From Bacteroidaceae bacterium (GTDB lineage Bacteria > Bacteroidota > Bacteroidia > Bacteroidales > Bacteroidaceae): a DNA stretch of 52,712 nt. The stretch's first letter is position 1. Each line of letters opens with the position of its first letter. A program made the position numbers and the translations under genes. The stretch covers positions 1 to 52,712 of the forward strand of contig JAFNXL010000070.1 of assembly GCA_017379075.1 (NCBI GenBank), written 5' to 3'. The notes below the pieces were generated by a model. The model made no database searches. It saw nothing but the letters and a program-made list of their open reading frames with translations, and had not been told where the DNA came from. Of the stretch, positions 24,141 through 52,712 are shown piece by piece.

Positions 24141-25178
24141 ATGACAAGTAACAATAAGAAGACGCTTAAAAAGTGGCACATTCCCTTCCTGCTTTTCCTG
24201 ATAATTGGAACATATATGGCACTTTCACGCAAAGGAGAAATTGAAAACGTTCCATATCAACATGCTGAAGGAGCCATTTTCGGTACCGTATATCATGCCA
24301 CATACCAATGTGACAGCAGTTTAAACGGGAAAATATTGAGCGAGTTGCAGGCCGTAGACCAGTCACTCTCTATGTTCAATCCCAATAGCACTATCAGCCA
24401 AATCAATTCGGGAAAGAGCAACGAAACGGACTCATTGCTGAGAACTATATTCTACATTGCACGCGATGTAAGCCATGCCACAGACGGAGCTTTTGACATA
24501 ACGGTGGCTCCGCTTGTCAATGCATGGGGATTCGGTTTCAAACATGGAGCTCTACCCGACTCGCTGCAGGTGGACAGCCTCAGACAACTGATTGGATGGA
24601 ACCGTATCAGTCTTGAAGATAATAAATTCGTTCGTGAAGACCCCCGTATGGTCATAGACCTGAGCGCTGTTGCCAAAGGCTTTGGTTCAGATTGTGTGGC
24701 ACAAATGTTCCATCGTCACGGCATTGAGAACTTCATGATTGAGATTGGAGGAGAAGTCGTTACCAGCGGATTAAGCCCCAAAGGAAAGCCATGGCGCATT
24801 GGAGTAAACAAACCCCAGGAAGATTCCACATCCACCAACAACGAATTGCAGACCATACTTCAGATGAAAAACTGCGCAATGGCCACTAGCGGAAACTACC
24901 GCAACTTCTACATTAACAACGGCAGAAAAATTGCCCATACCATTGACCCCAAAACCGGATACCCAGTGCAACATTCCATACTGAGCAGTACGGTCATTGC
25001 GCCCACTTGTGCTGTAGCAGACGCTTATGCCACCAGTTTCATGGTGCTGGGTCTTGAGAAATCTCTCCAGGTTTTGGACAAACATCCAGAATTGATGGCC
25101 TATTTCATCTTTGCAGACAAAGATGGCAATTACCAGGTATGGAAAAGTCCCGGCATTGAGGCACTCATTGCACAATAA
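24141..25178 (+). CDS. apbE: FAD:protein FMN transferase
   Basis: Attaches FMN covalently to Thr or Ser of redox subunits such as those of Na+-NQR or Rnf. The 345-residue protein has an N-terminal membrane segment (about 12-32) and so acts on the periplasmic side. The ApbE domain shows GTVYHATY, FDITVAPLVNAWGFG, DLSAVAKGFGSDCVA, IEIGGEVVTSG, the GRKIAHTIDPKTGYP metal-binding segment and CAVADAYATSFMVLG. No Rnf or Nqr genes are in the window. The Crp/Fnr gene follows after 4 bp. Confidence 0.94.
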   Translation: MTSNNKKTLKKWHIPFLLFLIIGTYMALSRKGEIENVPYQHAEGAIFGTVYHATYQCDSSLNGKILSELQAVDQSLSMFNPNSTISQINSGKSNETDSLLRTIFYIARDVSHATDGAFDITVAPLVNAWGFGFKHGALPDSLQVDSLRQLIGWNRISLEDNKFVREDPRMVIDLSAVAKGFGSDCVAQMFHRHGIENFMIEIGGEVVTSGLSPKGKPWRIGVNKPQEDSTSTNNELQTILQMKNCAMATSGNYRNFYINNGRKIAHTIDPKTGYPVQHSILSSTVIAPTCAVADAYATSFMVLGLEKSLQVLDKHPELMAYFIFADKDGNYQVWKSPGIEALIAQ

Positions 25179-45354: not shown

Positions 45355-47919
45355 TTAGACAAACCACTTCACGTAGCAGAAGTCCTGACGGTGAGGCAGG
45401 TTTTCATTCTTGGGATACATACGGTAGCAAACCTTGAAGCTTCCTGCATTGTCAATGCTGTGTGTAGCCTTGAATGTGAAGAGATTGCCTTCGCTAGATA
45501 CCATCTTGAACTGGTCGATGTTGTATACATGGTCAACACCTTCCTTGTCAGTAATCAAAGTAACGAGTTCAATACCAACTGCATCATTCAATCCGGCTTC
45601 ATCTACAACGATTTCGATATCGTACTTGTTACCGGCAATCAGATTGCCATTAACAACAGCTTCTTCCTTCTTGATGCTTACTACGTTGATAGCATCCCAA
45701 GCATTTGCCACATTTTCCTTCCACTCAGCAATTTCAAGAGCCAGCTTGTTACCGTTAGCCTTCAACAAGTTGCTGCGGTCACGCAGGTTGTTGTAGAACT
45801 TGCTATAGTAATCATCCAGCTGACGCTTCATGGTGTAATGGGGAGCAATCTGGGCAATGCTGTTCTTCACAACCTTAATCCAGCCTGCGCTGTAACCCTT
45901 GGCGTTACGAGCATAGTAGAGAGGCATGATCTCATTCTCAAGCAGAGAATAGATGGTAGCTGCATCCAGCTGATCCTGATAAGACTGGTTCTGGTATGTA
46001 CGCTTTTCAGTAAGCGCCCAACCTGCACCTTCGCGGTAGCCCTCAAGCCACCAACCGTCCAATACAGACAGGTTTACAACACCATTCATCAATGCCTTCT
46101 CGCCAGAAGTACCGCTGGCCTCCAGAGGACGAGTGGGAGTATTCATCCAGATATCAACACCAGAAATCAAGCGACGAGCCAACTGCATGTCATAGTTCTC
46201 CAAGAAGATGATCTTGCCCAGGAACTGAGGCATCTGGCTGATTTCATAAATACGCTTGATCAAACCCTGACCTGCACCGTCGGCGGGGTGAGCCTTACCG
46301 GTATAAAGGAACTGAACAGGATAGTTGGGATTGTTAACAATCTTCTCCAGACGCTCCAAGTCAGTAAAGAGCAGATGAGCACGCTTGTAAGTGGCGAAAC
46401 GACGTCCGAAACCAATCAACAGGGCGTTGGGGTTGATCTTCTCCATCAGGCTTACAACACGAGAGGGGTCACCCTGGTTCTTCAACCAGTTGTCGCGGAA
46501 CTGCTCACGGATATAGTTAACCAACTTGGTCTTCAGTTCCATACGAGTCTTCCAAACCTCTTCATCGCTCACGTTGTAGATTGCCTCCCAGATGCTCTGG
46601 TTGCTCTGGTCGCCCAAGTGGTTGGCAGAGAAGTGCTTTGCATAGAGCTTACGCCATTCGTTTGCGCACCAAGTGGGGAAGTGAACACCATTAGTAACAT
46701 AACCTACATGGCTTTCTTCGGGATAATAACCGTTCCAGATGCCAGCGAACATCTTCTTGCTTACCTCACCGTGCAACCAGCTCACACCGTTAACTTCCTG
46801 AGAAGTGTTGCAAGCGAAAGTACTCATGCAGAAGCGCTCGTTGTGATCCTCGGGATTCATACGGCCCATACCAATGAACTCATCCCAAGAAATGCCGAGC
46901 AACTGGGGATAACCGCTCATGTACTTGCCGAACAGACCCTCATCGAAGTAGTCGTGGCCTGCGGGAACGGGAGTATGCACGGTATAGAGAGAAGAAGCAC
47001 GTACCAACTCAAGAGCCTGAGTAAAGCTCATACCAGCCTTAACATAGTCAACCAGGCGCTGTACGTTGCACAATGCGGCATGACCTTCGTTGCAGTGGTA
47101 TACATCCTTTTCGATACCCAGTTTCTTCAACATCAGCACACCACCGATACCGAGCAGAATTTCCTGCTTCAGACGGTTTTCCCAGTCGCCACCATAAAGA
47201 GCGTGGGTGATGCTTCTGTCGAACTGAGAGTTCATTTCATTATCTGTATCAAGCAGATAAAGCTTGATGCGGCCTACATTTACACGCCATACATAAGCGT
47301 GAACATAGTAGTCCATATAAGGTACATCAATTACCAGAGGAGTGCCGTCAGCATTCATTTCCTGTTCGATGGGCAGAGAACCGAAGTTCTGGGCTTCATA
47401 ATTTGCCACCTGCTCACCAGCCATGCTGAGGGTCTGTGTGAAATAGCCATAGCGATACAAGAAACCAACAGCGCACATATCCACATTGCTGTCACTGGCT
47501 TCCTTCAGATAGTCACCGGCCAAAATACCAAGACCACCAGAATAGATCTTAAGAACCTGGTTCAAACCGTACTCCATACACAAGTATGCAACGCTTGCAC
47601 GCTTCTTGTCAGGCTCAACATCCATGTACTGACGGAACTCAGCATAAACTTCGTTCATCTTGTTGATAACAGCCTTGTCCTTGGTAAGCTTCTCCATCTT
47701 CTCGAAGCTCAGACGCTCTAACAACAACACGGGGTTTCCACCGCACTCGTCAAACAACTTGTCGTCCAAACTACGGAACAGACTACGAGCACTGTGATTC
47801 CAGGCCCACCACATGTTGTGAGCCAATTCGGAAAGCTTGCTCAGTTCAGCAGGTACGTTACTCTTTACGGTAACGGGCTTCCAGCTGGGCTGATTCACAT
47901 TACTAGCTTTAATTCTCAT
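45355..47919 (-). CDS. glgP: Alpha-glucan phosphorylase, GT35 short type
   Basis: Releases glucose-1-phosphate from glycogen or maltodextrin. The 854-residue protein opens with the short-phosphorylase N-terminal domain ([23 protein letters not shown]), not the long allosteric extension of E. coli MalP. Family motifs include [47 protein letters not shown] and the PLP region [14 protein letters not shown] with the cofactor Lys. It lies 97 bp downstream of the glycogen synthase on the same strand, with no consensus promoter between them. Confidence 0.95.
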
Positions 47920-48016
47920 CTTTTTTACGATAAATTAAATATTTCTGATATTACTTTTATTCTCAACTTTTGCTTTATGTCCAACTTAACTTATGTTTGA
48001 GCCCGACTATAAGCTA

Positions 48017-49681
48017 TTATTTGCTTTGACGCAACTTGGCATTTTCCAAAGCTATGGCGTAAGCCTGCTTGTAATAGGTAAAGAAGTTTTTCCACAATGC
48101 CTTCTTTGACAAGGCAGAAGCCTTCTTTCTCATGGCGTCACGTTCTTGGTCAGAACATGCCGAGTAACGCAACAAGGCATGGCAAATACCCTGAGCTACT
48201 TCATCGTTGTTATAATCGTTACGCGCTAACACTTCCACACCGTCTTCAAGCGTGCTGATGTCGCCCTTTACGGTTTGTGCCCAAATACCGAATCCAGAAA
48301 GAGAGGTTGTGATGCAAGGCACATGGAATGCTACAGCTTCCAGAGGAGTATATCCCCAAGGTTCGTAATATGAAGGATAGACTGCCAGGTCGTTTCCGAT
48401 GAGCAGATCATAATAAGGCATCTGGAAGATTCCGTCTGCGCCATCAAGGTAACAGGGCACAAAAATCACCTTCACTTTAGACTCTTCCGAATTGCTGATG
48501 TTCAAGGCACGTAAAAGGTTCAGCACCTGGTCATGTTGCATTTCGTGCAGATCGTGTGTGATGACAGGATTGTCCAGTGCTGTATCATATACCTGAGGGA
48601 AATCTAATCTTGCCTGCAAGTCGGCACGAGGACCGGCAACCCAGCCGGGAACCTGAATCAAAGCAAGGACTTCATTTTTCAAATCTGCTGACTGATCCAG
48701 ACAACGACGCATGGCATGAATGAAGACATCGATACCTTTGTTCTTGAATTCGTAACGTCCACTGGTGGCAACAATCAATGTGTCATCCGCAAATTTATGT
48801 CCGGTCAATGCATTGGCCACTTCCAGGATGCGCTTGCGTGCAGCCTTTCTCTTGGAGGTGAATTTTGCACCCTTGGGAACAAAATCGGCCTCAAATCCGT
48901 TCATCAGGATTGCATCGCACTCCTTGTCCAAGAGTTCCTTACATTCCCTACCGGTTACGTCGCTTACAGTAGTAAAGCAGTCCACATGATGTGCGGTCTG
49001 TCGCTCAATACTGTGCTTGGCTTCCATGTTCAGCTCGCGAGACATCTGCGTGCCGTCATAAGCCCAAAGATAATCGTAAAGAGGCTTTCCGTTTCCGGCA
49101 ATGCTTCTTCCGATGCTTGTGGCATGAGTTGTAAAAATGGTGGCAATCTGAGGAACGCTTTTCTGTACATAAAGCACACCCAAGCAGGTCATCCATTCAT
49201 GAGCCTGATACACCACGTCATCTGCATTGTTCAGAAACTCCTTGTAGAAACTCTCCACCACCCTGCCGGCAGCATAAGAGAACATATTGGCTTCGTCATA
49301 GTCGCCATATCCATGCAGGCTGTCTACCTGATAATCGTTCCAAGCCTGGGTATACAACTCATCACGAATGGCAAAGAAGGGATTAAAATCCACAAGCACA
49401 ACAAGCGGTTCGCCGGGAATATTCCATCGGCCGACACGAATGCTGAGTCCTTCTTCTTTTGCTTTGCTTACCCATTTTGTCCATAGTTTTTTATCTTCGA
49501 TGAAAAGAGGGTTTTCTTTCCCTGCCCAAAAATCAGGACCGATAAAAACTACCTTGTCTTTGAGTGCATCCTGCATGGTTTTTGCTCTTGTAGACAAAAC
49601 CGTATAGATGCCTCCAACTTTGTTGCATACCTCCCAGCTACTTTCAAATATGAAGGAAGGTAATGTATTATTTTCTTTCAT
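48017..49681 (-). CDS. Glycogen synthase, GT3 (eukaryote-like) family
   Basis: A 554-residue glycosyltransferase of family GT3, the type found in animals, fungi and Bacteroidota, unlike the GT5 enzyme GlgA. It opens FIFESSWEVCNKVGGIYTVLSTRAK, contains FTTHATSIGRSIAGNGKPLYDYL, HHVDCFTTVSDVT, and the nucleotide-sugar motif YYEPWGYTPLEA with the catalytic Glu. GT3 members use UDP-glucose. Paired with glgP, it makes and mobilises glycogen. Promoter TATCTTTG lies 31 bp before the ATG. Confidence 0.94.
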   Translation of the reverse strand: MKENNTLPSFIFESSWEVCNKVGGIYTVLSTRAKTMQDALKDKVVFIGPDFWAGKENPLFIEDKKLWTKWVSKAKEEGLSIRVGRWNIPGEPLVVLVDFNPFFAIRDELYTQAWNDYQVDSLHGYGDYDEANMFSYAAGRVVESFYKEFLNNADDVVYQAHEWMTCLGVLYVQKSVPQIATIFTTHATSIGRSIAGNGKPLYDYLWAYDGTQMSRELNMEAKHSIERQTAHHVDCFTTVSDVTGRECKELLDKECDAILMNGFEADFVPKGAKFTSKRKAARKRILEVANALTGHKFADDTLIVATSGRYEFKNKGIDVFIHAMRRCLDQSADLKNEVLALIQVPGWVAGPRADLQARLDFPQVYDTALDNPVITHDLHEMQHDQVLNLLRALNISNSEESKVKVIFVPCYLDGADGIFQMPYYDLLIGNDLAVYPSYYEPWGYTPLEAVAFHVPCITTSLSGFGIWAQTVKGDISTLEDGVEVLARNDYNNDEVAQGICHALLRYSACSDQERDAMRKKASALSKKALWKNFFTYYKQAYAIALENAKLRQSK

Positions 49682-49788: not shown

Positions 49789-49822
49789 TTTGTTATTCTT
49801 TGGTTATTTTTTCTTAAATTTG
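49789..49822 (+). promoter_or_regulatory. Promoter of the cytochrome module
   Basis: TTTG at 49789-49792, a 22-base spacer and TAAATTTG at 49815-49822, ending 21 bp before the ATG at 49844. It probably drives the three genes to the window end. Confidence 0.72.
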
Positions 49823-49843: not shown

Positions 49844-50251
49844 ATGAAATTAGCATTTCTTTTGCTTTTCTTTTTATATAATATTTGCGTGCAAGGCGAC
49901 ACTCCATGGAAACTCAGTCTAACCTGTCCAGAGGAGAAAATCGACCTTGTCATCGACCTATATGAAGAGAGCGTAGAAGTTCCCACCATGGAAATGTTCG
50001 GACCGATGAACGGATACCTTGGAGGAAACATTTACGGTGTTTGGTATGTTACTTCATTCAAGACAAAAGACAAAAAAGCAGAGATAAAAGTAGCCAATGA
50101 CCTTGGCAGCGAAAATCAGAAAATAGAACTACAACAATTGACCGACAGCACTTGGAGCATGAAATTCATCGGTCATAACGTAGTAAAGCGTGTATCAGGA
50201 AAGAAACTTGTAAAGATTCCTTCCGAATTTATCATGAAACGTAAGAAATAA
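49844..50251 (+). CDS. Secreted hypothetical protein upstream of the cytochrome
   Basis: Unrecognised 135-residue exported protein with a signal peptide (MKLAFLLLFFLYNICVQG). The ATG at 49844 is chosen because the longer frame starts inside the promoter. The mature part is beta-rich and lysine-rich toward the end, with MFGPMNGYLGGNIYGVWYVTS and LTDSTWSMKFIG. It has no cysteine pair for heme and no known motif. It lies 17 bp before the cytochrome-SUMF1 gene, so it is likely translated with it and may be a partner or a chaperone. Function unknown. Confidence 0.78.
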   Translation: MKLAFLLLFFLYNICVQGDTPWKLSLTCPEEKIDLVIDLYEESVEVPTMEMFGPMNGYLGGNIYGVWYVTSFKTKDKKAEIKVANDLGSENQKIELQQLTDSTWSMKFIGHNVVKRVSGKKLVKIPSEFIMKRKK

Positions 50252-50268
50252 GATAACAAGATAAACAG

Positions 50269-51792
50269 ATGTCAAGTAAGAAAAAGTATTTTTGGTTTGC
50301 TGCAAGTGGACTCGTCATCGGAGGAGCCCTCACTATCACCGCAAATCATTTCTATGAGAAAAGTTCAGAAAACGAGTCGTGCATGTCTTGCCACATTCAT
50401 CCCCAGTCGGATAATAGCTGGAAGCAGTCTGTGCACTACAACAACGAAAGCGGTACCGTAACGGATTGTGCGTCCTGCCATCTCCCGCCCAAGGGAACAT
50501 GGAAATATTTCTATGCAAAATCCACAACAGGTCTCAAAGATCTCTGGTCTTATCTGACGAAAGATTCTGCCGAATTGGATTTCGAGAGCAAGAGCGACAT
50601 GGAATATGCCAAAAACATTGTCTATAACGAGTCTTGCGAGAAGTGTCACCACAACATTTTCCCCAAGGGATTGACAGATGATGGCATTTCTGCCCACTTG
50701 TACTACGATGAGAACAAGGAAAAGCTCGACCTTCAGTGTATCAACTGCCACTTGGATGCAGGTCACTACGACCCCAATTACAAGCACGAAAAGATGACAG
50801 GAGCACCCATTGACACATCTGGTGTGGCGTATGACAGCGCAACCGTGGTCAAGGAATTCAAGAACTTTACTGAGACCGTACCCACCACCCACATGTCCAT
50901 CAACATGGTGGCCATCCCCGGTGGAACCTTTGAAATGGGAAGCAACGAAGGCGATGCGTACAGCCAAGCCGACGAATATCCCAAGCATAAAGTTACCGTA
51001 TCACCCTTCTTCATGGCAGAGCTTGAAATCACTTGGAACCAGTATTGGGCATTCTATCTGCAAACCATGTCTGAAGGACGCACACCTCCTGAAAAGATTT
51101 ACGCGAACAACACTCGTCCCGATGTGGATGTAATCAGCGGCCCCACTCCACCGTTTGGCGCACCCGACCAAGGTTGGGGAATGGGCGACCGTCCCGCAAT
51201 TACCATGACACATTATGCAGCACAGACCTTCTGCCAGTGGCTTTCGCTTAAGACGGGAAAGAAATACCGCCTGCCGACCGAAGCTGAGTGGGAATATGCT
51301 GCCCGCGGTGGTACAGACACCCCCTATTTCTTTGAAGGAAAACCCGGAAGCTACACCAACGAAGGTTTTTGGGCAGAGTTCTTCGGTGCAGACACCACAA
51401 CCATCAATGGTTTTGCAATCTATGCCAACAACAGCAAGGCTCGCACACAGGAACCCACCAAGGTTATGGCAAACCCCTTCGGTTTGAAGAACATGTTGGG
51501 TAACGTAATGGAATACTGCCAGGACTTCTACGCAGAAGACGCATATAGCAAAGTCAAGGACGGTGCTGTGGATCCCAAGGGTCCCGAAAGCGGCGAACAC
51601 TTTGTTGTGCGCGGAGGTAACTATCAGGACGATGCAAAAGACCTGCGTTGTGCGGCTCGCCGTCGCTCGGATTACGAGACATGGCTCAAGACCGACCCAC
51701 AGAAGCCCAAGAGCATCTGGTGGCTGTCTGACATGAAGGGCATCGGCTTCCGCGTTGTATGCGAAGTGCCCGAAGGCGTACAGGCCAAATAA
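50269..51792 (+). CDS. Tetraheme NapC/NrfH-type cytochrome fused to SUMF1-like domain
   Basis: A 507-residue, membrane-anchored periplasmic protein. One membrane helix (about 7-27) precedes a multiheme domain with four CxxCH sites: Cys38-Cys41, Cys67-Cys70, Cys123-Cys126 and Cys157-Cys160. This resembles NapC/NrfH quinol dehydrogenases, which pass electrons from menaquinol. Residues about 205-500 form a SUMF1/FGE-type domain: MVAIPGGTFEMGSNEGD, RLPTEAEWEYAARGG, NVMEYCQDFY and VVRGGNYQDDAKDLRCAARR. The formylglycine enzyme's copper-binding Cys pair, expected right after GGNY, is absent, so FGly synthesis is unlikely. Role uncertain: perhaps docking of a partner. The exported oxidoreductase follows after 81 bp. 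Confidence 0.9.
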   Translation: MSSKKKYFWFAASGLVIGGALTITANHFYEKSSENESCMSCHIHPQSDNSWKQSVHYNNESGTVTDCASCHLPPKGTWKYFYAKSTTGLKDLWSYLTKDSAELDFESKSDMEYAKNIVYNESCEKCHHNIFPKGLTDDGISAHLYYDENKEKLDLQCINCHLDAGHYDPNYKHEKMTGAPIDTSGVAYDSATVVKEFKNFTETVPTTHMSINMVAIPGGTFEMGSNEGDAYSQADEYPKHKVTVSPFFMAELEITWNQYWAFYLQTMSEGRTPPEKIYANNTRPDVDVISGPTPPFGAPDQGWGMGDRPAITMTHYAAQTFCQWLSLKTGKKYRLPTEAEWEYAARGGTDTPYFFEGKPGSYTNEGFWAEFFGADTTTINGFAIYANNSKARTQEPTKVMANPFGLKNMLGNVMEYCQDFYAEDAYSKVKDGAVDPKGPESGEHFVVRGGNYQDDAKDLRCAARRRSDYETWLKTDPQKPKSIWWLSDMKGIGFRVVCEVPEGVQAK

Positions 51793-51873
51793 GAGGAACT
51801 GTATTATACATTATATATATAATAATAAAGAAAGAAATTACCATTTATTCCCAATTTAATAAATTTATTAACA

Positions 51874-52712
51874 ATGGAAAACAAGAATTTTAACAGAAGA
51901 CAATTTCTGTCATGCGGTGCCATGATTGGCGCAGCAGGCATGGTAGCCCCTGCTATTCTGAGCAGCTGTGGCGGTGGTGCCAAGGAAGAAACCGGCTATA
52001 CTCCCCTGAAAGCACCCGGAGAATATTACGTTCCCGAATTGCCCGACAAGGCAATTGAAGGAAAGGCTCTTAAGGCTGGTGTTATCGGTTGCGGTGGCCG
52101 CGGAACCGGTGCCATCCTGAACCTTCTCGATGCAGCTGACGGTATCACCGTTGTTGCTCTGGGTGATGTATTTAAGGATCGTGTTGACCACGTTCGCAAC
52201 GTGCTGAAGAACGACCGCAAGCAGGAAGTACCCGAAGACAAGTGCTTCGTTGGATTCGACGCTTACCAGAAGGTCATTGACTCTGGCGTGGACATGGTAG
52301 TTATTGCCACTCCTCCCGTATTCCGTCCCGAACACTTCAAATATGCCACCGAAAAGGGTGTTCACTCTTTCCTGGAGAAGCCCATCGCAGTGGACGCTAA
52401 GGGTTACCGCACCATCATGGCCACTGCCAAGCAGGCTGTAGCCAAGGGACTGAGCGTTGTAACCGGTACACAGCGTCACCACCAGCGCAACTATGTTGAG
52501 GCATTCAAGAAGATTCAGGAAGGTTACATCGGTGAAATCACCGGCGGTAACGTATACTGGAACCAGGGTATGCTGTGGTACAGAGAGCGTCAGGAAGGCT
52601 GGACCGACATGGAATGGAACATCCGCGACTGGGTAAACTGGAAGTGGCTGTCTGGAGACCACATTGTTGAGCAGCACGTTCACAACATCGACGTATTCCT
52701 GTGGATGACCGG
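51874..52712 (+). CDS. Tat-exported Gfo/Idh/MocA oxidoreductase, 3' end outside the window
   Basis: Partial: about 279 codons, cut by the window edge. The N-terminus has a twin-arginine signal NRRQFLSCG and a lipobox LSSC (Cys about 32), so a folded, cofactor-loaded lipoprotein is exported. The Rossmann fold has the motif GVIGCGGRGTGA, binding NAD(P). Family residues are the EKP lysine in FLEKPIAVDA, the segment VVTGTQRHHQRN and the active-site region GDHIVEQHVHNID. Exported relatives oxidise or reduce sugar carbons, including C3 of glycosides. With its neighbours it suggests a membrane-connected redox function on a glycan or glycoside. Substrate unknown. Confidence 0.9.
   Translation, partial: MENKNFNRRQFLSCGAMIGAAGMVAPAILSSCGGGAKEETGYTPLKAPGEYYVPELPDKAIEGKALKAGVIGCGGRGTGAILNLLDAADGITVVALGDVFKDRVDHVRNVLKNDRKQEVPEDKCFVGFDAYQKVIDSGVDMVVIATPPVFRPEHFKYATEKGVHSFLEKPIAVDAKGYRTIMATAKQAVAKGLSVVTGTQRHHQRNYVEAFKKIQEGYIGEITGGNVYWNQGMLWYRERQEGWTDMEWNIRDWVNWKWLSGDHIVEQHVHNIDVFLWMT

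Follow-up and report, generated by a model that had tools for sequence, protein, structure and literature searches.

A Tetraheme Cytochrome-SUMF1 Fusion Inherited with a Gfo/Idh/MocA Enzyme in Bacteroidota

Known Systems and the Locus

Cytochromes of the NrfH/NapC/TorC family (PF03264), proteins of the FGE/SUMF1 family (PF03781) and oxidoreductases of the Gfo/Idh/MocA family (Gfo) are the described systems closest to a locus at the end of contig JAFNXL010000070.1 from a Bacteroidaceae bacterium (assembly GCA_017379075.1). The window analyzed is this entire contig of 52,712 nucleotides. In it, a 507 aa protein in which a tetraheme domain is fused to an FGE/SUMF1 domain (50269-51792, + strand; open reading frame (ORF) call and Pfam) is encoded ahead of a Gfo oxidoreductase (51874-52712, + strand; ORF call and Pfam), of which the first 279 residues are present as the window terminates within the gene. 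The locus is a genuine and conserved module that combines known families in a new way. No description of the tetraheme-SUMF1 fusion was found in the literature searched, with subscription papers mostly outside reach, and the words NrfH, SUMF1 and Gfo are all absent from the main texts of PMC8238504 and PMC11334425.

Among Gfo enzymes, DgpA is described in PMC11239390 as being purified with near-equimolar NAD(H) and requiring an outside oxidant; the reaction is ping-pong, with 3-oxo-glucose as the oxidant. Related steps of oxidation, elimination, hydration and reduction are described in PMC10628242. The Gfo of this locus resembles DgpA, glucuronide-3-dehydrogenase and the BT_2158 family in its Rossmann domain, its lysine K169 and its sugar-acting solved relatives, but differs from them in having a heme-SUMF1 protein as partner. 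Extracytoplasmic 3-oxidation of sugars linked to the respiratory chain is performed by the GMC glucoside 3-dehydrogenase; acting with gluconate_2-dh3, this is a flavoprotein, whereas the locus encodes an NAD enzyme and a NapC-type cytochrome. A TIM-barrel protein encoded beyond the Gfo gene belongs to the same family as 6wn6 and 3kws, differing from these in its twin-arginine signal and lipobox and in its position beside a heme-linked Gfo.

The Tetraheme-SUMF1 Fusion

The fusion begins with an N-terminal hydrophobic helix, followed by the NapC/NrfH-type tetraheme domain and a C-terminal FGE/SUMF1 domain. Both domains match Pfam well above the cut-offs: Cytochrom_NNT (PF03264) covers residues 3-170 with 86 bits (cut-off 24.1), and FGE-sulfatase (PF03781) covers residues 212-467 (50902-51669, + strand) with 136.8 bits (cut-off 23.3; 1.3e-39). 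Four CxxCH heme motifs are read from the translation on the + strand and recur in relatives: CMSCH at residues 38-42 (50380-50394), followed by H44; CASCH at 67-71 (50467-50481); CEKCH at 123-127 (50635-50649); and CINCH at 157-161 (50737-50751). The first-pass annotation, made from the letters of the window alone, was therefore correct in recognizing a quinol-type tetraheme cytochrome fused to a SUMF1 domain. In 63 related loci, taken from one scan of named public genomes with Bacteroidota titles, mostly gut or rumen Bacteroidales, the four motifs are present in 58, and the remaining five have contig-cut or split ORFs. The fusion ORF is split or stop-interrupted in L065, L078 and G053, either by assembly error or by decay.

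As in NrfH, NapC and TorC, the N-terminal helix and four CxxCH motifs are accompanied by a Lys/Asp pair of the menaquinol site; a profile search with the heme domain retrieves NrfH (2j7a, 2.7e-07), and in the alignment to 2j7a the residues K84 and D91 (50518-50541, + strand) pair with K82 and D89 of NrfH, forming a candidate menaquinol site. These two residues are named among the conserved ones of NrfH in PMC4683180. The equivalent pattern after heme 2, K...G..[DN], is kept in 37 of the 39 order-level fusions whose heme domain is intact. The quinol role of K82 and D89 comes from earlier work cited in the same NrfH paper and from general background. The menaquinone link proposed in the first-pass annotation gains support from these aligned residues. 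The fusion differs from NrfH/NapC/TorC in its FGE domain, in having a Gfo rather than NrfA as partner, and in heme 1, which is CxxCHxH in all 39 of these fusions as opposed to CxxCHxM in NrfH 2j7a; heme 1 is likely His-ligated and of lower potential. The NCBIfam models of NrfH, TorC and NapC all fall below their cut-offs on the fusion (NrfH TIGR03153, 60 bits against 134.2). The genome also encodes proteins for cytochrome c assembly.

The SUMF1 domain shares its fold and sequence family with the formylglycine-generating enzyme (FGE), PvdO, GldK and PorK, but differs from them in its missing copper cysteines, its own loop D-x-x-[ST]-G-[PA]-T and the attached cytochrome. Copper is bound in FGE by two cysteines after a GGS motif; no cysteine is present there in 53 of 55 fusions, one fusion has a cysteine and one has no GG motif. 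As the copper cysteines are missing, the domain is no ordinary FGE, and sulfatase maturation by it is unlikely. Assignment to GldK/PorK of gliding and type IX secretion was also rejected; GldK is the best NCBIfam match, yet it scores 105.6 against a cut-off of 350. The structure model of the fusion has a mean predicted local distance difference test (pLDDT) score of 59.8, too poor to place the loop or the hemes.

A second CxxCH-SUMF1 fusion is encoded in the same genome on contig C16 (L258:3832-7821), with NPCBM, HZS_alpha and C-terminal FGE domains and two CxxCH motifs in the part read. Upstream of it lies a gene of the melibiase type, and some 2 kb downstream there is a match to cytochrome c assembly.

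Co-Inheritance with Gfo

Among 139 genomes of the window's genus, many of which are incomplete, the fusion is found in 41 and Gfo in the same 41, the other 98 having neither. The fusion matches are all at E ≤ 4e-168, with the next best match at 4e-24. NrfA is present in three of the 139 genomes and in none of the 41 with the fusion, by which pairing of the cytochrome with NrfA was rejected. In the 63 related loci, Gfo is co-directional and at most 400 bp downstream of the fusion in 61, and fusion, Gfo and TIM-barrel genes occur together in 58; the three loci with Gfo and no TIM-barrel gene are on contigs that end within 1.8 kb of the fusion.

Order-wide, a fusion match at 1e-30 is present in 41 of 295 genomes. 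The order-level loci comprise 40 of the 48 matches listed, with the window, G485, second copies in G792 and G824, fragments in G764 and G686, and weak SUMF1-only matches in G590 and G544 set aside. In 35 of the 40, the next gene in the same direction is Gfo, and in 38 Gfo is within the locus. Neither outcome that would have counted against the first-pass annotation was thus observed, the fusion not being widespread apart from Gfo nor paired with NrfA in the genus. In these loci the adjacency to which that annotation had drawn attention is nearly always kept, so that the association with Gfo is almost invariable and the TIM-barrel partner is the part that varies. In L216 and L252, which belong to one family, Gfo paralogues lie between the fusion and the usual Gfo.

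The Gfo Enzyme and Its TIM-Barrel Partner

The Gfo gene broken off at the end of the window is completed on contig C19 of the same genome, which starts with exactly the last 141 bases of the window, and the TIM-barrel gene lies on C19, 13 bp past Gfo; the same gene order is found unbroken in a near-identical relative, L035. The module therefore extends past the three genes within reach of the first-pass annotation, as the TIM-barrel protein belongs to it too. The window's Gfo scores 46.6 bits on the Pfam model GFO_IDH_MocA (cut-off 24), and the complete Gfo of L035 scores 45.2 on PF01408 (cut-off 24) and 33.7 on the C-terminal domain model (cut-off 27).

Export of Gfo by the twin-arginine translocation (Tat) route had been proposed from the window. 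The Tat-signal model scores 18.5, below its cut-off of 22.7. Even so, each of the 61 Gfo relatives shows a twin-arginine pattern, with a lipobox after it in 59; the TIM-barrel protein has both in 52 of 58, all of these being counts from a permissive regular expression. Gfo is probably an exported lipoprotein.

The residue K169, the lysine of the EKP motif, is invariant in this Rossmann-domain enzyme. The solved relatives retrieved with the Gfo profile, mainly over the NAD domain, are inositol 2-dehydrogenase, glucuronide-3-dehydrogenase, DgpA, aldose-aldose oxidoreductase and sugar 3-ketoreductase. The window's Gfo type is not a member of the BT_2158 glycoside 3-dehydrogenase family by model NF058561 (26.7 against a cut-off of 750). 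Membership of GH109 or GFOR was rejected, neither being recognized among the solved matches at E 0.001, where their structures were sought by PDB code. The closest solved matches of the TIM-barrel protein are 3kws, a putative sugar isomerase (8e-112), and the 3-keto-D-glucoside 4-epimerase 6wn6 (5e-23). In fusion cluster L127, a transporter resembling nucleoside symporters is encoded along with a 3-keto-disaccharide hydrolase domain, and clusters with a stand-alone SUMF1 and Gfo encode a GMC oxidoreductase and Gluconate_2-dh3 in L131 (by Pfam) and L139 (by similarity). Neighbors and relatives together point to sugar 3-oxidation as the putative reaction.

SUMF1 and Gfo as the Constant Unit

Of 395 Bacteroidota genomes sampled evenly, 36 have a match to the fusion at 1e-40. 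Three of these matches are tetraheme fusions (G000, G485 and G483), and the others match over the SUMF1 part; the stand-alone SUMF1 proteins (29 extracted) are 314-422 residues long and heme-free, with starts that are signal-peptide-like by eye. All 36 genomes have Gfo (at 1e-60), compared with 64 of 395 overall (P ~7e-34), and the two genes are at most 1.5 kb apart in 32, once divergently, the pair not being adjacent in G387, G272, G320 and G509.

In quick trees built without bootstraps, the fusions fall on one side of a single branch of the SUMF1-domain tree, except for L254, a contig-cut fusion mislabelled as stand-alone. As one branch separates fused from stand-alone SUMF1, the heme domain apparently underwent a single gain or loss. 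The Gfo tree unites all 55 fusion partners in one fully supported group of 62 rows, which also contains three stand-alone rows and four labelled unlinked; L252 carries the latter label only by the distance limit, and the rows of L216 and L253 used an opposite-strand paralogue. Judged from these sequences, the constant unit is SUMF1 with Gfo, and the tetraheme anchor is an add-on. The first-pass annotation saw SUMF1 as no more than a dock joining Gfo to the cytochrome; this view has to be revised, as heme-free pairs imply that SUMF1 is itself the primary partner of Gfo.

In L130 and L133, a stand-alone SUMF1 gene lies next to YceI and, where Gfo would be expected, to a cluster of PSCyt1/DUF1549/DUF1553 with DUF1501, Gfo being elsewhere in these genomes; ApbE is also present in L130, and L133 was judged by gene order and length only.

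Proposed Mechanism and Alternatives

The reading that we prefer, held tentatively and at a little less than an even chance, is that of a periplasmic sugar-oxidation module in which a Gfo with bound NAD would pass electrons through the fusion to menaquinone. Gfo would fold with NAD in the cytoplasm, be exported by Tat and be tethered as a lipoprotein, where it may oxidize a sugar or glycoside, most likely at C3; the TIM-barrel partner would then rearrange or cleave the keto product. The SUMF1 domain may bind Gfo, a contact that we infer, and hold it at the membrane, so that the bound NADH could be re-oxidized on site through a putative hydride-to-single-electron step, with the tetraheme domain handing electrons to menaquinone in the inner membrane. 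Electron transfer from NADH to menaquinone is downhill and from sugar to NAD alone is poor; therefore, a cytochrome link in this direction would pull the reaction.

Several points weigh against sugar oxidation linked to menaquinone. Pairs of SUMF1 and Gfo are often found with no heme domain, and Gfo evidently can work without the cytochrome. The weak step is that from hydride to single electrons, for which the fusion offers no certain switch, and the fusion model is poor. Proteins of the NapC/NrfH type usually carry electrons outward from quinol. The Alistipes loci L075 and L077 have neither an adjoining Gfo nor a TIM-barrel gene, their Gfo being encoded elsewhere in the genome (66 and 65% identical); the order-level fusions L251 and L255 have no neighboring Gfo, and the TIM-barrel gene is within four genes of the fusion in only 19 of the 40 order-level loci. 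Finally, DgpA, a relative of Gfo, regenerates its NAD by reducing a second sugar, according to PMC11239390.

This behavior of DgpA underlies the most serious rival, a closed redox cycle in which Gfo would retain its NAD and re-oxidize it with a second sugar, or with the keto product it has made, as the acceptor, with the tetraheme-SUMF1 protein anchoring or assembling the enzymes or serving a similar role. It ranks as such because most of the sampled genomes with a SUMF1-Gfo pair have the heme-free form, and a closed cycle is consistent with the ping-pong reaction and near-equimolar NAD(H) of DgpA and with aldose-aldose oxidoreductase being among the solved relatives of Gfo. However, Gfo and the heme fusion are never apart among the 139 genus genomes, it would be difficult to account for the conservation of heme and quinone-site residues if electrons of the pathway bypassed the hemes, and GFOR and GH109 structures are missing from the matches at the threshold given above; a closed cycle is therefore considered unlikely, although it deserves serious weight.

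The SUMF1 domain could instead be the redox catalyst, acting like PvdO (dihydropyoverdine dehydrogenase) and passing electrons into its own tetraheme domain, while Gfo and the TIM-barrel protein work on the same compound at an earlier or later step and give the hemes no electrons. PvdO is the best fold match of the domain (E 8e-13), ahead of FGE, and is also among the sequence matches of the fusion, and the loss of the copper cysteines agrees with a domain other than an ordinary FGE. However, the fold match was obtained with the low-confidence structure model, the PvdO model NF051459 scores 92 against a cut-off of 500, and the stand-alone SUMF1 proteins have no attached electron acceptor, leaving a PvdO-like catalyst rather improbable.

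Outward flow, with menaquinol electrons passing via the tetraheme domain to a periplasmic reduction (of a keto sugar by Gfo, or by an unlinked reductase), would follow the usual direction of NapC/NrfH proteins and use the conserved NrfH-type quinol site, but it is very improbable, as reduction of NAD by menaquinol is uphill (potentials of about -320 and -74 mV), NrfA is absent and no other periplasmic reductase was recognized in the C19 operon.

A Candidate Flavinylation Loop

For the preferred flow of electrons from Gfo to menaquinone, a switch from hydride to single electrons could be sought in the SUMF1 domain itself. Its loop DVISGPT (residues 287-293; 51127-51147, + strand) resembles in motif comparison the flavinylation motif of ApbE, given as D-x-x-[S/T]-G-A-[S/T] in PMC12052999. 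In this version, the domain would be a covalent flavoprotein in which flavin mononucleotide, set on Thr293 by ApbE, accepts the hydride of Gfo-bound NADH and releases electrons one at a time to the tetraheme domain. Across 105 distinct fusion ORFs, some nearly identical, the loop reads D-x-x-[S/T/A/I/V]-G-[P/A]-T, with D, G and T in all 105, S or T in 99, and the exact ApbE motif in five. ApbE genes are also found in seven of 18 stretches with a stand-alone SUMF1, five on the same strand within three genes and two on the other strand, three of the seven assignments being confirmed by Pfam; the usual ApbE target motif is absent from all ORFs of these seven stretches and of L133.

Several results count against a flavin. 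Proline takes the position of the ApbE alanine in 97 of the 105 fusion sequences, including the window; a scan of 42 fusion loci found no ApbE gene, and the loop of the stand-alone proteins, which in most cases reads D-x-x-[T/S/A]-[R/L/M]-P-[S/T], is a poorer match to the motif. In the alignment with FGE, the fusion loop falls on a variable part that precedes the substrate-binding one, and its pLDDT in the model is below 50, so that any placement in the fold is tentative. The idea that genus members with the fusion have an additional copy of ApbE was also considered and is uninformative, as ApbE is present with or without the fusion (126 of 139 genomes, mostly in single copy, including 39 of the 41 with the fusion). 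Flavinylation is thus a doubtful addition, with only a slim chance of being correct. If it were, the fusion would work outside the cytoplasm as an NADH:menaquinone oxidoreductase with the FGE fold as its scaffold; we know of no example of such an FGE-fold respiratory entry point.

The window itself encodes an ApbE flavin transferase (24141-25178), the only copy found in the genome and about 25 kb from the fusion; tests of eight window ORFs, some near this gene and others further away, revealed no Rnf or Nqr subunit.

Gene Order and Neighboring Features

The ORF calls agree with the first-pass annotation in placing three co-directional genes on the + strand, with intergenic gaps of 17 and 81 bp. 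The first of these, predicted by ORF call to encode a small secreted protein of 135 aa (49844-50251, + strand), had been counted as part of the module but is accessory and not core: it is present in 32 of the 63 related loci and matches no Pfam family above cut-off, CE2_N being a sub-threshold match only. A pattern match resembling a promoter, TTTG-N22-TAAATTTG (49789-49822, + strand), which we take to be of the Bacteroidota type, does exist where a consensus promoter had been claimed; the match proves little, as the TTTG/TAAATTTG pattern with a spacer of 18-23 bases occurs nine times in the window over both strands.

The 32 loci with the small secreted gene are exactly those of the 63 with a divergent gene like glgA. 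In the window, the divergent genes adjoining the module (45355-49681) are presumably glycogen phosphorylase- and synthase-like, the synthase-like gene being the one kept in those 32 loci. A gene further along C19 is tentatively taken for an oligopeptide transporter. At L075 of Alistipes, the fusion (L075:5776-7422) stands apart from Gfo and a DUF2961 protein is encoded next.

Biological Meaning

If the preferred reading of menaquinone-linked sugar oxidation is true, some gut and other Bacteroidota would oxidize sugars outside the inner membrane, with no prior import, by passing electrons from a bound nicotinamide to menaquinone. It would also explain how an exported NAD enzyme is re-oxidized, and would provide a function for an orphan branch of the FGE/SUMF1 family and a new class of partner for the NapC/NrfH cytochromes.

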